From an uncultured Ardenticatenia bacterium (lineage in GTDB: Bacteria; Chloroflexota; Anaerolineae; 4572-78; NAK82): a stretch of 36,948 nucleotides of DNA. The stretch lies in assembly GCA_937127125.1 (NCBI GenBank), contig CAKZLO010000078.1, positions 1 to 36,948 on the forward strand. The letters run 5' to 3'. Both the position numbers and the translations under genes were made by a program. The notes under the pieces were generated by a model. The model saw only the letters and a program-made list of their open reading frames with translations, was not told the origin of the DNA and did no database searches. Below are positions 16,664 to 23,105 of the stretch, one piece after another. Position 1 is the stretch's first letter. Every line of letters starts with the position of its first letter.

Positions 16664-17044
16664 TTACTCCCGATGAGCTGTGTTTCCGATGGAGATCTCG
16701 CCCTCATCCAAGCCATACTTGAACATCAGCTGCTTGAAGGCATTTCGGTTGATCAGTTTGATTTTCACCTCTGGATATAGCTCACGCAATCGGCGCAATT
16801 TGCGATGTTTGCGCGTGATGAGGTGCTGTTCCATGGTGGTGATCTCAATGTACAGATCCTGCTCCGGCAGGTAGAAATCGGGTGTGAACGCCTCGGTGAC
16901 GTTGCCGTTCTCGTCCCAAGCCAGTGCAAACGCTCGTGGTTCGTACTGCCAGGGGATTTGGTAGAAATCCAGGATACGTGCGAATTCCTGCTCACTGGGG
17001 TGAGAGAACACCACGTCGCAGCGTGGAGCGTCCTGCTGCGTCAT
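16664..17044 (-). CDS. Small conserved protein with a PD-(D/E)XK nuclease-like core
   Basis: A 126-residue protein I cannot name. The core TPDFYLPEQDLYIEIT (54-69) resembles the PD-(D/E)XK nuclease fold. Glu19/Glu20 lie upstream, Asp56 is in PDF, and Glu67 is in the position of the D/E, but the usual Lys two residues later is Thr69. A basic helix (RKHRKLRRLRELYP, 78-91) and IKLINRNAFKQLMFKYGL follow. Catalysis is therefore doubtful; it may bind nucleic acid or nucleotide without cutting. The start overlaps the stop of the kinase-like gene by 4 bases (17041-17044), so the two are translationally coupled and probably work together. Confidence 0.7.
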   Translation of the reverse strand: MTQQDAPRCDVVFSHPSEQEFARILDFYQIPWQYEPRAFALAWDENGNVTEAFTPDFYLPEQDLYIEITTMEQHLITRKHRKLRRLRELYPEVKIKLINRNAFKQLMFKYGLDEGEISIGNTAHRE

Positions 17045-17607
17045 AAACCTCCAATTTCCCGCAACGCCTGGATGATCAGCGCGGCCGCCCGGTCCAACGG
17101 CAGCAGCCCAGTATTGACAATCAGATGATATAACGACGGATCATTTATGTCAAGGTGATAACTGCGCCGTACGTAACGCGCCCTAGACCGGCTGCTCGTC
17201 TCCATCCATGCCATGGCGGCTTCCCGACTCAGGTTACGTTCTTGTTGCAACCAGCTGAGGCGCAGTTCCAACGGCGCCACCACGCGCACGTGTAACACAT
17301 CGGGGCGCCCACGCAAGACCACCTGACCGCCCCGACCGACGATGACCACATTGCCGGCGTCGGCCAGCTCACGGATGATGCGCTCCACCTGTTTCTGGTA
17401 AGCGCGCCACTCACGTGTTGAGGGGCAAATGCCGAATAGGCCCAGCTCATCCACTTCGGCCAGGGCCACCTCCGGCACGCCAGCCTTGCGTGCCGCCTGG
17501 TTGATTAGCTCACGGCTGACCAGCCGCCAGCCCAGCTGCTGGGCCACCAGGGCAGCCAGCTCGTCGCCGCGACTGCTCACCTGCCGCGACACAGTGATGG
17601 CGCTCAT
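17041..17607 (-). CDS. Cytidylate kinase-like protein with altered P-loop
   Basis: A 188-residue protein resembling the cytidylate-kinase-like family (Pfam Cytidylate_kin2). MSAITVSRQVSSRGDELAALVAQQLGW matches the family's opening beta-loop-helix, but the nucleotide loop reads SSRGDE and lacks the Gly-rich GxxGxGK(S/T) of classical kinases. VVIVGRGGQVVL and VLHVRVVAPLELRL follow, with the basic lid segment RSRARYVRRSY near the end. The ATG at 17607 has GAGG about 6 bases upstream. The reaction is unproven; binding of CMP-like or other nucleotides is inferred. Coupled by ATGA overlap to the small nuclease-like protein. Confidence 0.75.
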   Translation of the reverse strand: MSAITVSRQVSSRGDELAALVAQQLGWRLVSRELINQAARKAGVPEVALAEVDELGLFGICPSTREWRAYQKQVERIIRELADAGNVVIVGRGGQVVLRGRPDVLHVRVVAPLELRLSWLQQERNLSREAAMAWMETSSRSRARYVRRSYHLDINDPSLYHLIVNTGLLPLDRAAALIIQALREIGGL

Positions 17608-17678
17608 CGCGACCTCATAACGCTGTAACAGCAGCACTGACGGGGCGATGCAACGGTTACAACCTTGCTCGTCCGGGA

Positions 17679-18194
17679 TCAGGTAGCTTGTTGTGCCACA
17701 GGCACTGTTGCCAATTTCCCATTGAGATATTTGGCAAAAAGCACCAGATCATCCCCGCTAGCATAGAAATCGTGGATGACGGCTTGGCGCTCATAACCAC
17801 ACGCCTCATAAAAGCGTCGAGTCGCTTGATAATTGGGCTTTCCGGATGTCTCGATCAGCAGCAACGTTCCGCCGCCCACCCGCACACCCGCTTCGACACA
17901 GGCCAACAGAGCGCGGCCAAGGCCATGTGCCTGCATTTCCGGGTGCACCGCGATCCAGTGTAAGTCGTAGGCGCTTTTCGTCAAAGGGTGTAATCCGTAG
18001 CATGCGAAGCCCACCACGCGCCCGCTGTCGTGACAAACCAGAAAGTGATACTCACTTGCATCTTGCTTATCTAGGTAATCATTCCACAGCTCCTGCACAC
18101 ACGCCTTCTCGGCGGAATTGAAGATATCGATTCTGGAGACGATCTCCAGAATGCCCGGTCCATCTTCAGGCCGGGCAGCATGGATCTCAATCAT
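17679..18194 (-). CDS. GNAT family N-acetyltransferase
   Basis: A 171-residue acyl-CoA-dependent acyltransferase. MIEIHAARPEDGPGILEI is the GNAT opening, VGFACYGLHP is beta4, and WIAVHPEMQAHGLGRALL carries the acetyl-CoA pyrophosphate loop (Q-x-x-G-x-G). NYQATRRFYEACGYE is the conserved end. The ATG at 18194 overlaps the stop of the second ATP-grasp gene as ATGA; longer frames reading back into that gene are not supported. Being third in a coupled ATP-grasp/ATP-grasp/GNAT operon, it probably modifies, or adds an acyl or aminoacyl group to, the ligase product. That is an inference from context. The next gene follows after 71 bases. Confidence 0.88.
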   Translation of the reverse strand: MIEIHAARPEDGPGILEIVSRIDIFNSAEKACVQELWNDYLDKQDASEYHFLVCHDSGRVVGFACYGLHPLTKSAYDLHWIAVHPEMQAHGLGRALLACVEAGVRVGGGTLLLIETSGKPNYQATRRFYEACGYERQAVIHDFYASGDDLVLFAKYLNGKLATVPVAQQAT

Positions 18195-19306
18195 ACATGT
18201 TTCGCTCCTATGGAAAGAAGCAAAATGTGTTCGATCATATCCTCGTAGCTGTATCCGGCAGCGCGAGCGGCGCGATAGAAACCGGCGTCTGGTGACAGGT
18301 CGGGATTGCAATTGACCTCCACCACCATGGGCAAACCATCCTGGCCGATGCGCATATCGACACGGGCATAGCTGCGACAACCGATCGCCTTCCAGCTCAG
18401 ACGCGCAGTCTGCACGATGCGCTCCGCCAGGGGCTCCTCCACCCGTGCCGGGCACTGCACCGGCGTGTGCGTGTACTCGAACGACCCCTCTTCCCACTTG
18501 GCCGCAAAGGATACAATGCGTTCGCAAGGATTGGCAAAAGCGCTAAAATCCACCTCGGCCAACGGCAACACCTCAACCGGGTCACCCCACAGCGCCACGT
18601 TGAATTCGCGCCCATCGATGAATTGTTCCACCAACGCTGCCTGACGATACCTCTCCACTACATAGGCCACGCGGTCGCGCACTGCCTGCACGTGCGAAAC
18701 CACAGCCTCTGGTCCGATGCCCAGGCTGGCATCTTCGGCCACCGGTTTGATAATCACCGGAAATTGCAGTCCCTCAAGCGAGTTGCTCTTGACCTCATCC
18801 GGGTGTCGGAACACCTTCCACGGAGGTGTGGCGACCCCGTGTCCGACCAGCAGCTGCTTGGCGCGTGCCTTGTTCAATGAGCGACTGAGCGCATCGCCCT
18901 CACAGCCGGTGAAGCGATACCCCATAGCTTCGAGCGCCCAGGCGATGCGCGCATCCTCAAACAATCTGCCCTCCAACCCTTCGCCCAGGTTAAACACCAC
19001 CCATTCCGTGGGCGGATAGGGCAACAGTGCCATCTCCACCTCCATAGACGCTCGGGTGACCGGATTGGCGGACAGACACGACGCGAGCACATCGTTCTCC
19101 AGCATACCCCCGCTGGGCGCGATTGGCACCAGGGCTGTGCGGTACCCCTTGCGTTGCAACGCGGCGGCAACGGCATGGGCACATTGCACCACCTCCTGAT
19201 CTGCTATCAGGTCACGCGGTTCACCTTTCATCAACTGAGTGCTATGATTGTACAGCACCACGACACCGGGCGGCTCCTGGTCGTCTGAGAGCATCCTGAA
19301 TATCAC
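18191..19306 (-). CDS. ATP-grasp ligase, D-alanine-D-alanine ligase-like (second paralogue)
   Basis: A 371-residue ATP-grasp protein related to D-Ala-D-Ala ligases. An N-terminal pre-ATP-grasp part contains VFNLGEGLEGR, the equivalent of the Ddl substrate-binding N-x-x-E-G. The ATP-grasp core has FPVIIKPVAEDASLGIG (ATP lysine and Gly/Ser loop) and VEQFIDGREFNVALWG. The metal site lies near the C-terminus in VVEVNCNPDLSPDAGF (Glu and Asn). Canonical Ddl reads EINTLPG at this point, so the substrate may differ. The GTG at 19306 overlaps the upstream stop as GTGA; an ATG at 19294 is also possible. It is coupled to both neighbours. Expected chemistry is carboxylate activation as an acyl phosphate and amide bond formation; the substrates are unknown. 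Confidence 0.85.
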   Translation of the reverse strand: MIFRMLSDDQEPPGVVVLYNHSTQLMKGEPRDLIADQEVVQCAHAVAAALQRKGYRTALVPIAPSGGMLENDVLASCLSANPVTRASMEVEMALLPYPPTEWVVFNLGEGLEGRLFEDARIAWALEAMGYRFTGCEGDALSRSLNKARAKQLLVGHGVATPPWKVFRHPDEVKSNSLEGLQFPVIIKPVAEDASLGIGPEAVVSHVQAVRDRVAYVVERYRQAALVEQFIDGREFNVALWGDPVEVLPLAEVDFSAFANPCERIVSFAAKWEEGSFEYTHTPVQCPARVEEPLAERIVQTARLSWKAIGCRSYARVDMRIGQDGLPMVVEVNCNPDLSPDAGFYRAARAAGYSYEDMIEHILLLSIGAKHV

Positions 19307-20373
19307 CCCCTTTTCTGATCAAGGCCATAACGCCGAATAGCTTCGTTCAAAATGCGATTGATCAGCTCTTCGTAACGCCATCCGTCGGCAGCGGCTTCCA
19401 GGCACAGGTCGGAGTATTCGGGATTGAGGCCCGGGAGCGGGTTGATCTCCAGGATATAGGGCTTTTCGTTGTCGTTCACATCCAGTCGGAAATCCACCCG
19501 CGCCACATCGAGACAGCCCGTCACCCGAAAAGTGGCCGCGGCCAGCCAGTTGAGCTGTTCCACCTGCTCCGGACGTAGCGGAGCAGGACATATATAGTGA
19601 AAATCGTGCACCAGATCTACCTTGATACGTCCTGTATACACCCCTCCTTCATCCGGTGGATACGCCGCCATATTGACTTCCAAGGGTGGGAAAAGATGCA
19701 GTCCACCGAACATGCGCGAGGCGCTGTCATCGTCCGGCACCCGACGCGCCGCCGGTCTGGTCAGATTGCCCACCAGGCCCACCGTCACCTCGCGCCCTTC
19801 GATGAAGCGCTCGACCAGTGCGGGCTGGTTGTAGCGCTCAAAGATGCGCTTGAGCTGAGTGCGCAGTTCCGCCTCGTTGTGGACGATCGACTCGCCCGAA
19901 ATTCCCATGCCCGTCCCCTCACGACTGGGCTTCACAAAACACGGAAAGTCCATCGTCGAGCAATCCAGCTCCTCATCCAGGCGCTCGAAGACCTGGAAAG
20001 GTGGCGTGGGCAAGTCATGGTAGGTCAGGACGCGCTTGGTCATCGGTTTATCGAGGCAAAGCGCCAGGGTCAGCACCCGCGAGCCGGTGTAGGGGATGCG
20101 CATGAATTCAAGGATGGCAGGCACCTGTGCCTCGCGCGAGTCGCCGAAATGACCCTCGCAGATGTTGAAACAGATGTCCGGCCGAAGCTTTTCCAGGTTG
20201 TCGATCAGGGTGCGATCGCCTTCCAAGAAGGTGACCCGGTGCCCGTTCGACTCCAGCGCACGCATAATGGCCTCGATCGTTTCCTCAGCATCCAGGTCGT
20301 CCCACATGTCGGGCGGCATTCCCTCCCAGACCGGGGCGTTCTTCTTCAGATTTGCTAACAATGCTACCTGCAT
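19303..20373 (-). CDS. ATP-grasp ligase, D-alanine-D-alanine ligase-like (first paralogue)
   Basis: A 356-residue ATP-grasp ligase, first gene of a three-gene coupled module. PDICFNICEGHFGDSRE is the Ddl-type N-x-x-E-G substrate loop. FPCFVKPSREGTGMGIS is the ATP-binding stretch, VERFIEGREVTVGLVG follows, and the Mg site is LEINPLPGLNP, close to the Ddl ExNxxPG signature. It keeps this signature better than its partner does. The ATG at 20373 has AGAGGAG nearly touching it. A true cell-wall Ddl would normally be a single gene with mur or van neighbours. A pair with a GNAT points instead to a dipeptide or short-peptide (or amino-acid conjugate) pathway, which is an inference. Confidence 0.87.
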   Translation of the reverse strand: MQVALLANLKKNAPVWEGMPPDMWDDLDAEETIEAIMRALESNGHRVTFLEGDRTLIDNLEKLRPDICFNICEGHFGDSREAQVPAILEFMRIPYTGSRVLTLALCLDKPMTKRVLTYHDLPTPPFQVFERLDEELDCSTMDFPCFVKPSREGTGMGISGESIVHNEAELRTQLKRIFERYNQPALVERFIEGREVTVGLVGNLTRPAARRVPDDDSASRMFGGLHLFPPLEVNMAAYPPDEGGVYTGRIKVDLVHDFHYICPAPLRPEQVEQLNWLAAATFRVTGCLDVARVDFRLDVNDNEKPYILEINPLPGLNPEYSDLCLEAAADGWRYEELINRILNEAIRRYGLDQKRG

Positions 20374-20427: not shown

Positions 20428-22605
20428 TTACGGCAGGTCTAGCTCCCCTATCGGAATGGCAAAATCCTCATACACGCTGCCATCTGCACGGCCAGCGCGC
20501 ACACGTTCCATATTGTAGTCGTACATGCCAGCCACGACGGCGTAACGTCCCGGCGGCAGGTCGGATGGCAAGGCGATGTCGTGCGCATCCGCATAGACCC
20601 AACCGCGCTGCCAGGTGTGCGTGGGCAGCTGGCCGTTAGCCGGGAAGCTGTCGTGGCCGGCAATGAAACGTCCTGTCGCATCCAGGATATGCGTGAAAAC
20701 GGTGAAGCTTTCGGTGGGAGGCGCCGCGGCCCACCAGTACAACGTCACGCGTGTGTGATGCTCGGGCATCTTCTCGACTGCGCTGCCGATCAGGTTGATC
20801 CCATTCGTCAGGCGTGCCAGCGGTGGCGGAGGCGCACCGCCTCCGTGTCGGGCGACCAGCGCCAGCTGATAATTGTTCGCAAAGCGGTAGCGTATCAGGG
20901 CATACCCGAGCTGCGAGGGGAGGGCTCTTGTCGTCTCGCCCTCTTGCTGGAAGACGAACCACAGCGTCTGGGCGCTGGCAAGAGCCTCTTCGAGAGCCCG
21001 ATTGCGTGCCCCCGCTGGCAAATTCACGCCCCCCAGGACGCGTATCACGTAGGCGCCACCCAGATAGGGCCTGAACTGACGCAGCATGCGATGGTCTTCT
21101 AAGATCAACGTGCCGGCCTGTGCGCGCGCCTGTTGGGTGTCCAGGTACCCGATCAGGGGTGCGGCCGGGTCCTGTTGCAATTGTCGCTGCGCATAACTTT
21201 GCGCCACACTGGGCAACCCAGCCAGCAGCCCGACGCCCACCAGGATGCTCAGCGCAGCCGGTGCATAGCGGCGCACACCCGCCAGCCGCGCCAGCGTCGA
21301 AGGCCATATGACGAAGGCGAATTCCAGCGCCAGCACACCCAGAGTCAACCAGCGCGTCACCACCACCCCTACTAGGAGCTGCCGCGCATCCGGCACAAGC
21401 ACAAAGTACACCGGCTGCTCCAGCACATTCAACAGGGTGAGCAACAGGCTGTAGACCACACCGCGCCGATTGGGGAATAGGAGAATCACAAAGGGCAGCA
21501 GGTAGACCAGGAACTGCGGACTGTAGCCTTTGGAATAGAGCAGGAAGAAGGTGACGGTGAAACCGGTCAGGGCGATCACGTTGCGCGGCTGGGTGTAATC
21601 GGCTCGCTGCAGCCATATCACGGCATACAGCACGAGGAAGATCAGCGCAATCAGCCACCACGGCAATGTGGCCGCGTGGACGGCAAAAGCGCTCTCCGTG
21701 GCGTTGAGGCGGTCGCCGCCCACGACGCCGAAGCCGTAGTACCCTTCTATGATGGCCCAGACCGTCTCCCAGGAGGAGCGCCCGAGCGCGGCGCGCCCCA
21801 TGGTGAGCAACCAAGCCGGCTGCACCACCAAGAAAGGCGCCGCCAATACTAAAACCGCGAGCGCAGCACCCACCACGTAGAGCGCCCCATCGCGCAACCC
21901 GCTGCGTCGATCGGCCGCAAGGCTCCATAGCTGGCGCACGGCAACAGGGAGAAAGATGGCCGGTATCAGCTTGACCATGAAGCCGACACCAGTGGCAACC
22001 GCTGAGCGCACCAGCTGCTCGCGCAACGCGCAGTGCAGCGCCAGCAACAGGAAAAAGAGAGCGACGCTGTCAAAGAACCCCAACATGGTGTAGAGCGGGA
22101 CAAACAACAAGGCATACAACCAGACGGGACGCAACACAGCGCTGCGCGATCCTGCCGCGCCGTACAGCCGTTTGGAGAGCGCGTAGATGAGTGCCAGGTT
22201 GCCTGCCTCAAACAGCACGTAGATGCTCCCCAATATCACAACAAACCACAGGCGGGGATCATCCGTCCAGGCGGGCAGGTGCAGGCTCAACTGATAAGCG
22301 CCCACAGCCACCCATGGCAGCAGAGGTGGCCATTCCAGCCAGTAATGCAAGAAAGGATACAAACCGTAATCAGAAAGCGAGGCAAAACCGAGGAACGTGT
22401 CGAAGTCGGACCAATCGCGGATGAAGCCACCCGGCCGCAGCAACACCAGCGCCAACCAGCGAAACACCAGGAACAGCAGAAACACCCAGACAAAGCCGAG
22501 TGCTGGCTGCCTGGGCATGTCCGCTGCATCAGCCCCTGGTTGCGGAGGAGGTTTGTGTGCCTCAATCAGTTCGCTGTCCATCGTAGTATAGTGCGTATAG
22601 TTCAT
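20428..22605 (-). CDS. Large GT-C-type membrane glycosyltransferase with C-terminal soluble domain
   Basis: A 725-residue protein. After a short cytoplasmic tail there are about 10-12 hydrophobic helices through residue about 500. An early loop, FIRDWSDFDTF, holds the acidic pair typical of GT-C enzymes that use polyprenyl-phosphate sugars. The last 220 residues are soluble and beta-rich (VTLYWWAAAPPTESFTVFTHI, GRYAVVAGMYD). That domain resembles ones appended to membrane glycosyltransferases in related bacteria. The ATG at 22605 is preferred: AGGAT lies about 9 bases upstream, overlapping the rnhA stop, whereas longer frames run into rnhA. It could alternatively be a polymerase-like protein of the glycan locus. 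Confidence 0.8.
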   Translation of the reverse strand: MNYTHYTTMDSELIEAHKPPPQPGADAADMPRQPALGFVWVFLLFLVFRWLALVLLRPGGFIRDWSDFDTFLGFASLSDYGLYPFLHYWLEWPPLLPWVAVGAYQLSLHLPAWTDDPRLWFVVILGSIYVLFEAGNLALIYALSKRLYGAAGSRSAVLRPVWLYALLFVPLYTMLGFFDSVALFFLLLALHCALREQLVRSAVATGVGFMVKLIPAIFLPVAVRQLWSLAADRRSGLRDGALYVVGAALAVLVLAAPFLVVQPAWLLTMGRAALGRSSWETVWAIIEGYYGFGVVGGDRLNATESAFAVHAATLPWWLIALIFLVLYAVIWLQRADYTQPRNVIALTGFTVTFFLLYSKGYSPQFLVYLLPFVILLFPNRRGVVYSLLLTLLNVLEQPVYFVLVPDARQLLVGVVVTRWLTLGVLALEFAFVIWPSTLARLAGVRRYAPAALSILVGVGLLAGLPSVAQSYAQRQLQQDPAAPLIGYLDTQQARAQAGTLILEDHRMLRQFRPYLGGAYVIRVLGGVNLPAGARNRALEEALASAQTLWFVFQQEGETTRALPSQLGYALIRYRFANNYQLALVARHGGGAPPPPLARLTNGINLIGSAVEKMPEHHTRVTLYWWAAAPPTESFTVFTHILDATGRFIAGHDSFPANGQLPTHTWQRGWVYADAHDIALPSDLPPGRYAVVAGMYDYNMERVRAGRADGSVYEDFAIPIGELDLP

Positions 22606-22616
22606 GTAGATACATC

Positions 22617-23105
22617 CTACTGCTGGCGCGCCGCATTCCGGCCGCCGTGTTCCCTGGCGAGAGCTGCCCTCGCTAGGCGGTCCACATAAGTGTTCCAGTA
22701 GCTGTCGGCGTGTCCGCGCACCCAATGCCACGTAATCTGATGATATCGCATCAGCTGCGCGAGACGACGCCACAAATCCTGGTTCTTAACCGGAGTACGT
22801 CGTGATGTTTTCCAGTTTCGTCTCTCCCAGTCCGGCAGCCATTCAGTGATTCCGCGACGCAAGTATTCTGAGTCGGTGTACAGATGAACGCGGTGTGGAC
22901 CGCGCAGTGCTGCCAGCGCTTCGATGGCCGCGCGCAACTCCATGCGGTTGTTGGTCGTGCGTCGCTCGCTGCCAACCAGCTCCTGAGGATGGCGACCGGT
23001 CAACAGCACCGCAGCCCATCCCCCGGGGCCGGGGTTGGGATCGCATGCGCCATCCGTGTAGATGACGACTTCCGGGAGGGACAAAGTCGCGTCGTCACCT
23101 ATCAT
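22617..23105 (-). CDS. rnhA: Ribonuclease HI
   Basis: A 162-residue RNase H that cuts the RNA strand of RNA-DNA hybrids, for example primers and R-loops. All four catalytic acids are visible: Asp18 in YTDGACDPNPGPGG, Glu56 in TNNRMELRA, Asp78 in YTDSEYL, and Asp142 in YVDRLAR. The flexible-loop His132 is in VRGHAD. The substrate handle WERRNWKTSRRTPVKN is present, so it is the full bacterial type. It lies in the middle of the glycan gene run, 11 bases from the membrane glycosyltransferase. An AT-rich promoter-like stretch is upstream. Confidence 0.95.
   Translation of the reverse strand: MIGDDATLSLPEVVIYTDGACDPNPGPGGWAAVLLTGRHPQELVGSERRTTNNRMELRAAIEALAALRGPHRVHLYTDSEYLRRGITEWLPDWERRNWKTSRRTPVKNQDLWRRLAQLMRYHQITWHWVRGHADSYWNTYVDRLARAALAREHGGRNAARQQ

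Follow-up and report, generated by a model that had tools for sequence, protein, structure and literature searches.

Two Ddl-type ligases and an acetyltransferase of Chloroflexota form a candidate module for beta-lysine peptide synthesis

Introduction

Enzymes of the D-alanine--D-alanine ligase (Ddl) fold are usually read as cell-wall enzymes, and a locus that encodes two of them head to tail with an acetyltransferase raises the question of what is being joined and capped. One such locus lies in a 36,948-nucleotide stretch of DNA, referred to here as the window, from an uncultured Ardenticatenia bacterium (Chloroflexota; assembly GCA_937127125.1, contig CAKZLO010000078.1). On its minus strand, a first Ddl-fold ATP-grasp ligase, GrA, is followed by a second, GrB, and then by a GNAT acetyltransferase (Table 1). 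The original prediction for this locus described two diverged Ddl-like ligases with a GNAT enzyme, and the open reading frames and Pfam matches bear this out: both ligases match Dala_Dala_lig_C and the third protein matches the GNAT family. The three are clearly genuine genes, since GrA homologs across the Anaerolineae are 60-76% identical and GrB and GNAT recur together throughout the phylum. The same prediction took the trio for a peptide or conjugate module distinct from the cell-wall Ddl, a part that holds, and guessed at glycan decoration from the glycan and nucleoside-kinase neighbours, a part that is not supported. Gene-order comparison gives a different recurrent partner, the radical SAM enzyme KamA, which points to beta-lysine as a candidate building block. 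Below, loci, genomes and contigs are numbered L, G and C.

Two ligases distinct from the cell-wall Ddl

The genome has a true Ddl of its own. This enzyme, encoded on contig C10, scores 373 bits against the Ddl family model TIGR01205 (cut-off 245.65 bits) and lies in a cluster with murG and murC, identified by search, and ftsA and ftsZ, identified by reading translations. GrA and GrB reach 151 and 119 bits, both under the cut-off. The objection that they are the genome's only Ddl genes fails because of the true Ddl in this mur/fts cluster. In a tree of 51 ligases, a long branch (support 100/100) leads to a single clade of the six true Ddl sequences, and the 15 GrBs make up another clade (99/90). 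The GrA sequences split into two groups with no settled connection between them; the GrA of the window is placed among those of Anaerolineae, and its GrB among the operonic GrBs. The fold itself is that of Ddl and other ATP-grasp enzymes. AlphaFold models reach a pLDDT (predicted local distance difference test) of 90 for GrA and 82 for GrB, and for both proteins the 50 PDB hits listed are, without exception, Ddl or D-Ala-D-Lac ligases.

Alignment with the genome's own Ddl shows where the two ligases depart from it. The positions that bind ATP and metal are kept in both. At the substrate positions Ser150, Tyr216 and Leu282 (E. coli DdlB numbering), the own Ddl carries Ser, Tyr and Met, GrA carries Thr, Val and Asp, and GrB carries Ala, Trp and Gly. 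Where Ddl has Leu/Met282, all aligned GrAs have Asp, which is Asp322 in the GrA of the window and would suit a cationic substrate. GrB had been credited with a changed metal/substrate loop in the motif EVNCNPDLSP. Its metal ligands, Glu330 and Asn332, are in fact kept within EVNCN, and it is the substrate loop behind them that is altered; the substrate loop of GrA is altered too.

KamA as the recurrent partner

In about 19 of 80 Anaerolineae loci, the gene immediately ahead of GrA encodes a KamA-family radical SAM enzyme. The arrangement extends to longer operons: KamA-GrA-GrA-GNAT-GrB occurs in L073, L084 and L086, KamA-GrA-GrB-GNAT in small Dehalococcoidia-like genomes (L102, L103, L105-L114 and L116) as well as in G136, where GrB matches weakly, and KamA-GrA-GrB-GNAT-GrB in G208 and G276. 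In other genomes the genes are dispersed; G064, G072 and G096, for example, carry GrB-GNAT alone and have their KamA and GrA on separate contigs. Among 62 Chloroflexota genomes, chosen partly on GrB hits, 49 have both GrA and KamA, none has GrA without KamA, two have KamA without GrA and 11 have neither (Fisher p = 1.5e-10, without phylogenetic correction). A strong GNAT homolog is present in all 26 genomes with GrB.

By its residues, the KamA of the window's genome (C10:20104-21300) is a lysine 2,3-aminomutase. It aligns with the lysine 2,3-aminomutase structure 2a5h over 404 residues (511 bits) and carries the CxxxCxxC cluster motif. Counted along this alignment, Asp293 and Asp330, which are taken here from the published structure to be the lysine-binding residues, are both kept. 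The same pair is kept in 26 of the 27 KamAs examined, the exception being that of L074, which is encoded on the opposite strand and does not adjoin GrA. Model scores favour lysine over glutamate or arginine aminomutase in every tested KamA, and the cut-offs of the latter models are far from reached. Against the lysine 2,3-aminomutase model TIGR03820 (cut-off 525.4), the KamA of L086 (535) and most Anaerolineae KamAs are over the cut-off, and those of the small-genome operons score 459-485 where complete, at least 40 bits under it.

Other uses of KamA were considered. Beta-lysylation of elongation factor P was rejected, as the score of 247 lies well under the EpmB cut-off of 369.3. A search for lysine 5,6-aminomutase, aimed at lysine fermentation, was uninformative, because no control genome gave a match.

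Occurrence in small genomes with no MurG match

KamA and GrA are both present in 17 small genomes, all near-complete, and 14 of these also have GrB and GNAT. None of the 17 has a MurG match, and their MurC hits are all far under the cut-off. Their best Ddl-family match is a ligase of the GrA/GrB type, under the Ddl cut-off. By their size and content, these genomes probably belong to Dehalococcoidia, namely Dehalococcoides, Dehalogenimonas and relatives, which are reported to be without peptidoglycan (PMC10284905). The same 2023 study of the class found ddl to be "widely present within the class", with core peptidoglycan genes lost in orders 10-25 (PMC10284905). To judge from the sequences, the published ddl of the wall-less orders may be the KamA-linked ligases described here. 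Model-based annotation labels genes of the GrA/GrB type as D-alanine--D-alanine ligases, and the link to KamA offers a concrete alternative function.

The GNAT acetyltransferase

The third protein of the module carries the acetyl-CoA loop (Q/R-x-x-G-x-G/A) as QAHGLG. Its nearest solved relative is PDB 2r7h (118 bits), labelled "putative D-alanine N-acetyltransferase". Two known acetyltransferase identities were rejected: AblB, with 26 bits against the TIGR03827 cut-off of 205.1, and RimI, whose model score is also under the cut-off. A search of the window's genome with TIGR03827 gave no AblB match at E 0.001.

Proposed pathway

In the proposed pathway, KamA, encoded on contig C10, would convert L-lysine to beta-lysine. 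GrA would then activate one amino acid as an acyl phosphate and couple it with another, beta-lysine being one of the pair; GrB would form a second amide bond, and GNAT would acetylate an amine left free in the product. The order of these steps and the amine that receives the acetyl group are likewise predicted. Because the genes are tied to KamA across genomes and are present in wall-less bacteria, a small acetylated beta-lysine peptide, apparently one not described before, is a probable product. That the module of the window forms the ligation and capping half of such a pathway, with KamA supplying the beta-lysine, is a reading for which the chances are evenly balanced. The expected product is a cytosolic di- or tripeptide, small and acetylated, that might plausibly serve as a compatible solute or as a storage or stress metabolite. 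N-epsilon-acetyl-beta-lysine is already known to act as a compatible solute (PMC1224877), and by analogy a role as a solute is a reasonable first guess. If the pathway exists as proposed, a hitherto unrecognised family of beta-amino-acid peptides is to be expected.

Several points weigh against this reading. The KamA of the window's genome is unlinked to the module and may serve another use, and it falls about one bit short of the TIGR03820 cut-off (524 against 525.4). Many GrA loci adjoin neither KamA nor GrB and GNAT, and a GNAT homolog occurs clearly without GrB in five genomes. The co-occurrence of GrA and KamA is uncorrected for phylogeny and comes from the set of genomes picked in part on GrB hits. 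Finally, the roles of Ser150, Tyr216 and Leu282 as substrate residues, including that of position 282, are presumed from earlier structural work on Ddl.

A broader proposal is more tentative, and the balance leans somewhat against it: that Chloroflexota hold a widespread, undescribed pathway in which two neofunctionalised Ddl enzymes make an acetylated beta-lysine peptide, kept after the loss of peptidoglycan, recorded as "ddl" in wall-less Dehalococcoidia and making use of a LysW-type carrier in some lineages. A literature search for KamA or an aminomutase together with ATP-grasp enzymes found nothing relevant.

Related gene clusters extend beyond the arrangement described above. Five loci (L127, L135, L137, L138 and L126) hold clusters of two or three ATP-grasp genes with GNAT, and G262 has two ATP-grasp/GNAT clusters, as if the product differed between lineages. 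Rhizobial plasmids, including pNGR234a of NGR234, carry a lone ATP-grasp gene (L089:9896-10906 and L090:9998-10996). These symbiotic-plasmid proteins are about 35% identical to GrA and are placed near GrB in the tree; they give no functional clue, because neither GNAT nor KamA is listed alongside them in the two records.

Alternative explanations

The module may instead make a peptide that has nothing to do with beta-lysine and is built, for instance, from D-amino acids or ordinary L-amino acids; the link to KamA would then stem from common lineage or from KamA having some other use. This is unlikely, although it survives better than the other alternatives. Ddl-fold enzymes often use D-amino acids, the best solved relative of GNAT is labelled as acting on D-alanine, and KamA is unlinked not only in the window's genome but also in G064, G072 and G096. 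It is opposed by the repetition of KamA-GrA operons in distant families and by the co-occurrence, in which all 49 genomes with GrA have KamA. The poor score of KamA as an enzyme of elongation factor P and the lack of an AblB match in the genome also count against it.

A second alternative involves a carrier protein and is raised because acidic zinc-ribbon proteins adjoin GrA or KamA-GrA in some relatives. GrA would attach lysine or beta-lysine to a LysW-type small acidic zinc-ribbon protein, or decorate its acidic tail, and GrB and GNAT would act on the tethered product. LysW-like ribbons over the Pfam cut-off adjoin GrA or KamA-GrA in five loci (Table 1), with further look-alikes in L013, L017, L027, L030, L032 and L033. 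A second acidic type, with a rubredoxin-like zinc site and a long Asp/Glu tail, precedes KamA-GrA in three more (Table 1) and, by sequence pattern, in L040 and L052. The sole LysW of the window's genome, however, lies far from the module, beside a LysX-type gene, and has the canonical EDWGE tail, and no acidic zinc ribbon was found in L009, the closest relative, or by the long operons of L073, L084 and L086. The ribbons linked to GrA have acidic tails but unconserved C-termini. LysX, moreover, belongs to the RimK branch of the ATP-grasp enzymes rather than the Ddl branch. The carrier explanation is unlikely.

Glycan decoration, as first suggested, is improbable. Amino acids or a peptide would be attached to a surface glycan that the adjacent glycosyltransferases produce, and the module is indeed flanked by genes for GT87-type, GT4 and flippase proteins. 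This neighbourhood is limited to the window and its near relative L009, and the ligases of other relatives sit in unrelated contexts.

A metallophore containing beta-lysine is more improbable still. In G020, KamA-GrA is followed directly by Fur-family, ZnuA-type and ABC-transporter genes (L144:4740-10084), and a Thioflavicoccus plasmid combines an ATP-grasp gene with KamA, SbnA, an ornithine cyclodeaminase-like gene and a diaminobutyrate transaminase (L091:4653-10134). In the window, no metal-uptake transporter or Fur-type regulator adjoins the module, and none was seen beside the operon of L128 and L129.

The view of GrA and GrB as ordinary D-Ala-D-Ala ligases, or as spare copies of them, which their fold and Pfam family would allow, can be set aside, given the true Ddl in the mur/fts cluster, their scores under the Ddl cut-off, the lost substrate residues, the long branch that separates Ddl from both groups and the occurrence of homologs in MurG-less genomes.

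Gene boundaries and local neighbourhood

The module was originally described as overlapping by four bases at both junctions. The ATGA overlap between GrB and GNAT is real and is kept in L009, the closest relative (88% identical). The GTGA between GrA and GrB is present as letters but is doubtful as a true junction: L009 lacks a start codon at the same place, and its GrB begins at an ATG preceded by GGGGGTGAT, which the window also carries, before the ATG at 19294. By this comparison, the ATG at 19294 is the likelier start of GrB, and an 8-base gap the likelier junction. A scan for promoters and terminators found no clear boundary within the module.

The flanking genes were correctly described beforehand, with a GT87-type membrane protein upstream and a Cytidylate_kin2 gene and a uridine kinase gene downstream. 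The nearest downstream gene, the cytidylate-kinase-like CmkL, runs in the same direction as the module after a 41-base gap and lies within a few kilobases of GrA in L055, L057, L063, L065 and L146. The small protein Y126, whose gene overlaps CmkL, has no Pfam or NCBIfam match and is paired with CmkL in the window, L009 and these same five loci. Neither is thought to be part of the pathway. The GT87-type gene stands beside the module in the window and L009 only, and gene-order comparison finds the exact neighbourhood to be common to these two alone, with the CmkL/Y126 pair near GrA in a handful of others. The local neighbours were therefore rejected as a clue to function.

Table 1. Positions of the module genes, their flanking genes and the small acidic proteins near GrA in related loci (window positions unless a locus is given)
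Feature	Coordinates	Strand	Length	Family match
GrA, Ddl-fold ATP-grasp ligase, first gene	20373-19303	minus	356 amino acids	PF07478, 6.6e-30
GrB, second Ddl-fold ATP-grasp ligase	19306-18191 (GTG start 19306 as listed)	minus	371 amino acids	PF07478, 5.4e-28
GNAT acetyltransferase, third gene	18194-17679	minus	171 amino acids	PF13508, 6.8e-14
CmkL, cytidylate-kinase-like	17041..17637	minus		PF13189, 4.8e-39
Y126	16664..17044	minus	126 amino acids	none
GT87-type membrane protein, upstream flank	20428..22773	minus		PF09594, 6.5e-7
LysW-like zinc ribbon	L012:4281-4523			over Pfam cut-off
LysW-like zinc ribbon	L034:7114-7398			over Pfam cut-off
LysW-like zinc ribbon	L031:3270-3548			over Pfam cut-off
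LysW-like zinc ribbon	L014:5065-5310			over Pfam cut-off
LysW-like zinc ribbon	L059:271-522			over Pfam cut-off
Rubredoxin-like acidic small protein, long Asp/Glu tail	L035:4246-4512
Rubredoxin-like acidic small protein, long Asp/Glu tail	L043:3454-3717
Rubredoxin-like acidic small protein, long Asp/Glu tail	L046:2670-2963

Comparison with known systems

The closest relative by fold is Ddl itself. GrA and GrB share its ATP-grasp lysines as well as its ATP- and metal-binding Arg, Asp, Glu and Asn. They differ in scoring under the family cut-off, in the replacement of Ser150, Tyr216 and Leu282, in having homologs in genomes without peptidoglycan genes and in being linked to KamA rather than to mur and fts genes. 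With the LysW/LysX system, the module has in common an ATP-grasp ligase and, in some relatives, an acidic zinc-ribbon protein. Its ligases, however, are of the Ddl type and not the RimK type, and the module of the window has no carrier gene.

In 2009, Iyer, Aravind and colleagues reportedly predicted, as the title of their survey has it, peptide operons of ATP-grasp amidoligases and GNAT enzymes, and that survey may already include the KamA-linked operon. The predicted operons resemble the module in combining tandem peptide ligases with amino-acid-modifying enzymes; the related amidoligase operons of PMC2922099 are described with no mention of an aminomutase.

Two solute pathways offer further parallels. 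The synthesis of N-acetylglutaminylglutamine amide (NAGGN) relies on a ligase that combines GNAT and ATP-grasp parts in one fused protein and has an asparagine synthetase as its partner. Both systems have an ATP-grasp ligase and GNAT, which in NAGGN synthesis yield an N-acetylated dipeptide, named as a solute in PMC1224877. The module differs in having separate genes, two ligases and KamA as its recurrent partner, and neither a GNAT/ATP-grasp fusion nor an asparagine synthetase is found among the ten annotated genes around it. The AblA/AblB pathway of N-epsilon-acetyl-beta-lysine (PMC1224877) shares the pairing of a lysine 2,3-aminomutase with a GNAT acetyltransferase. The module departs from it in its GNAT, which is not AblB, and in its two additional ATP-grasp ligases. 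The small genome G020 holds both kinds of system: separate from its KamA-GrA pair, a single frame of 784 amino acids (G020:C1:174396-176477) matches AblA and then AblB, apparently a fused gene for acetyl-beta-lysine synthesis.

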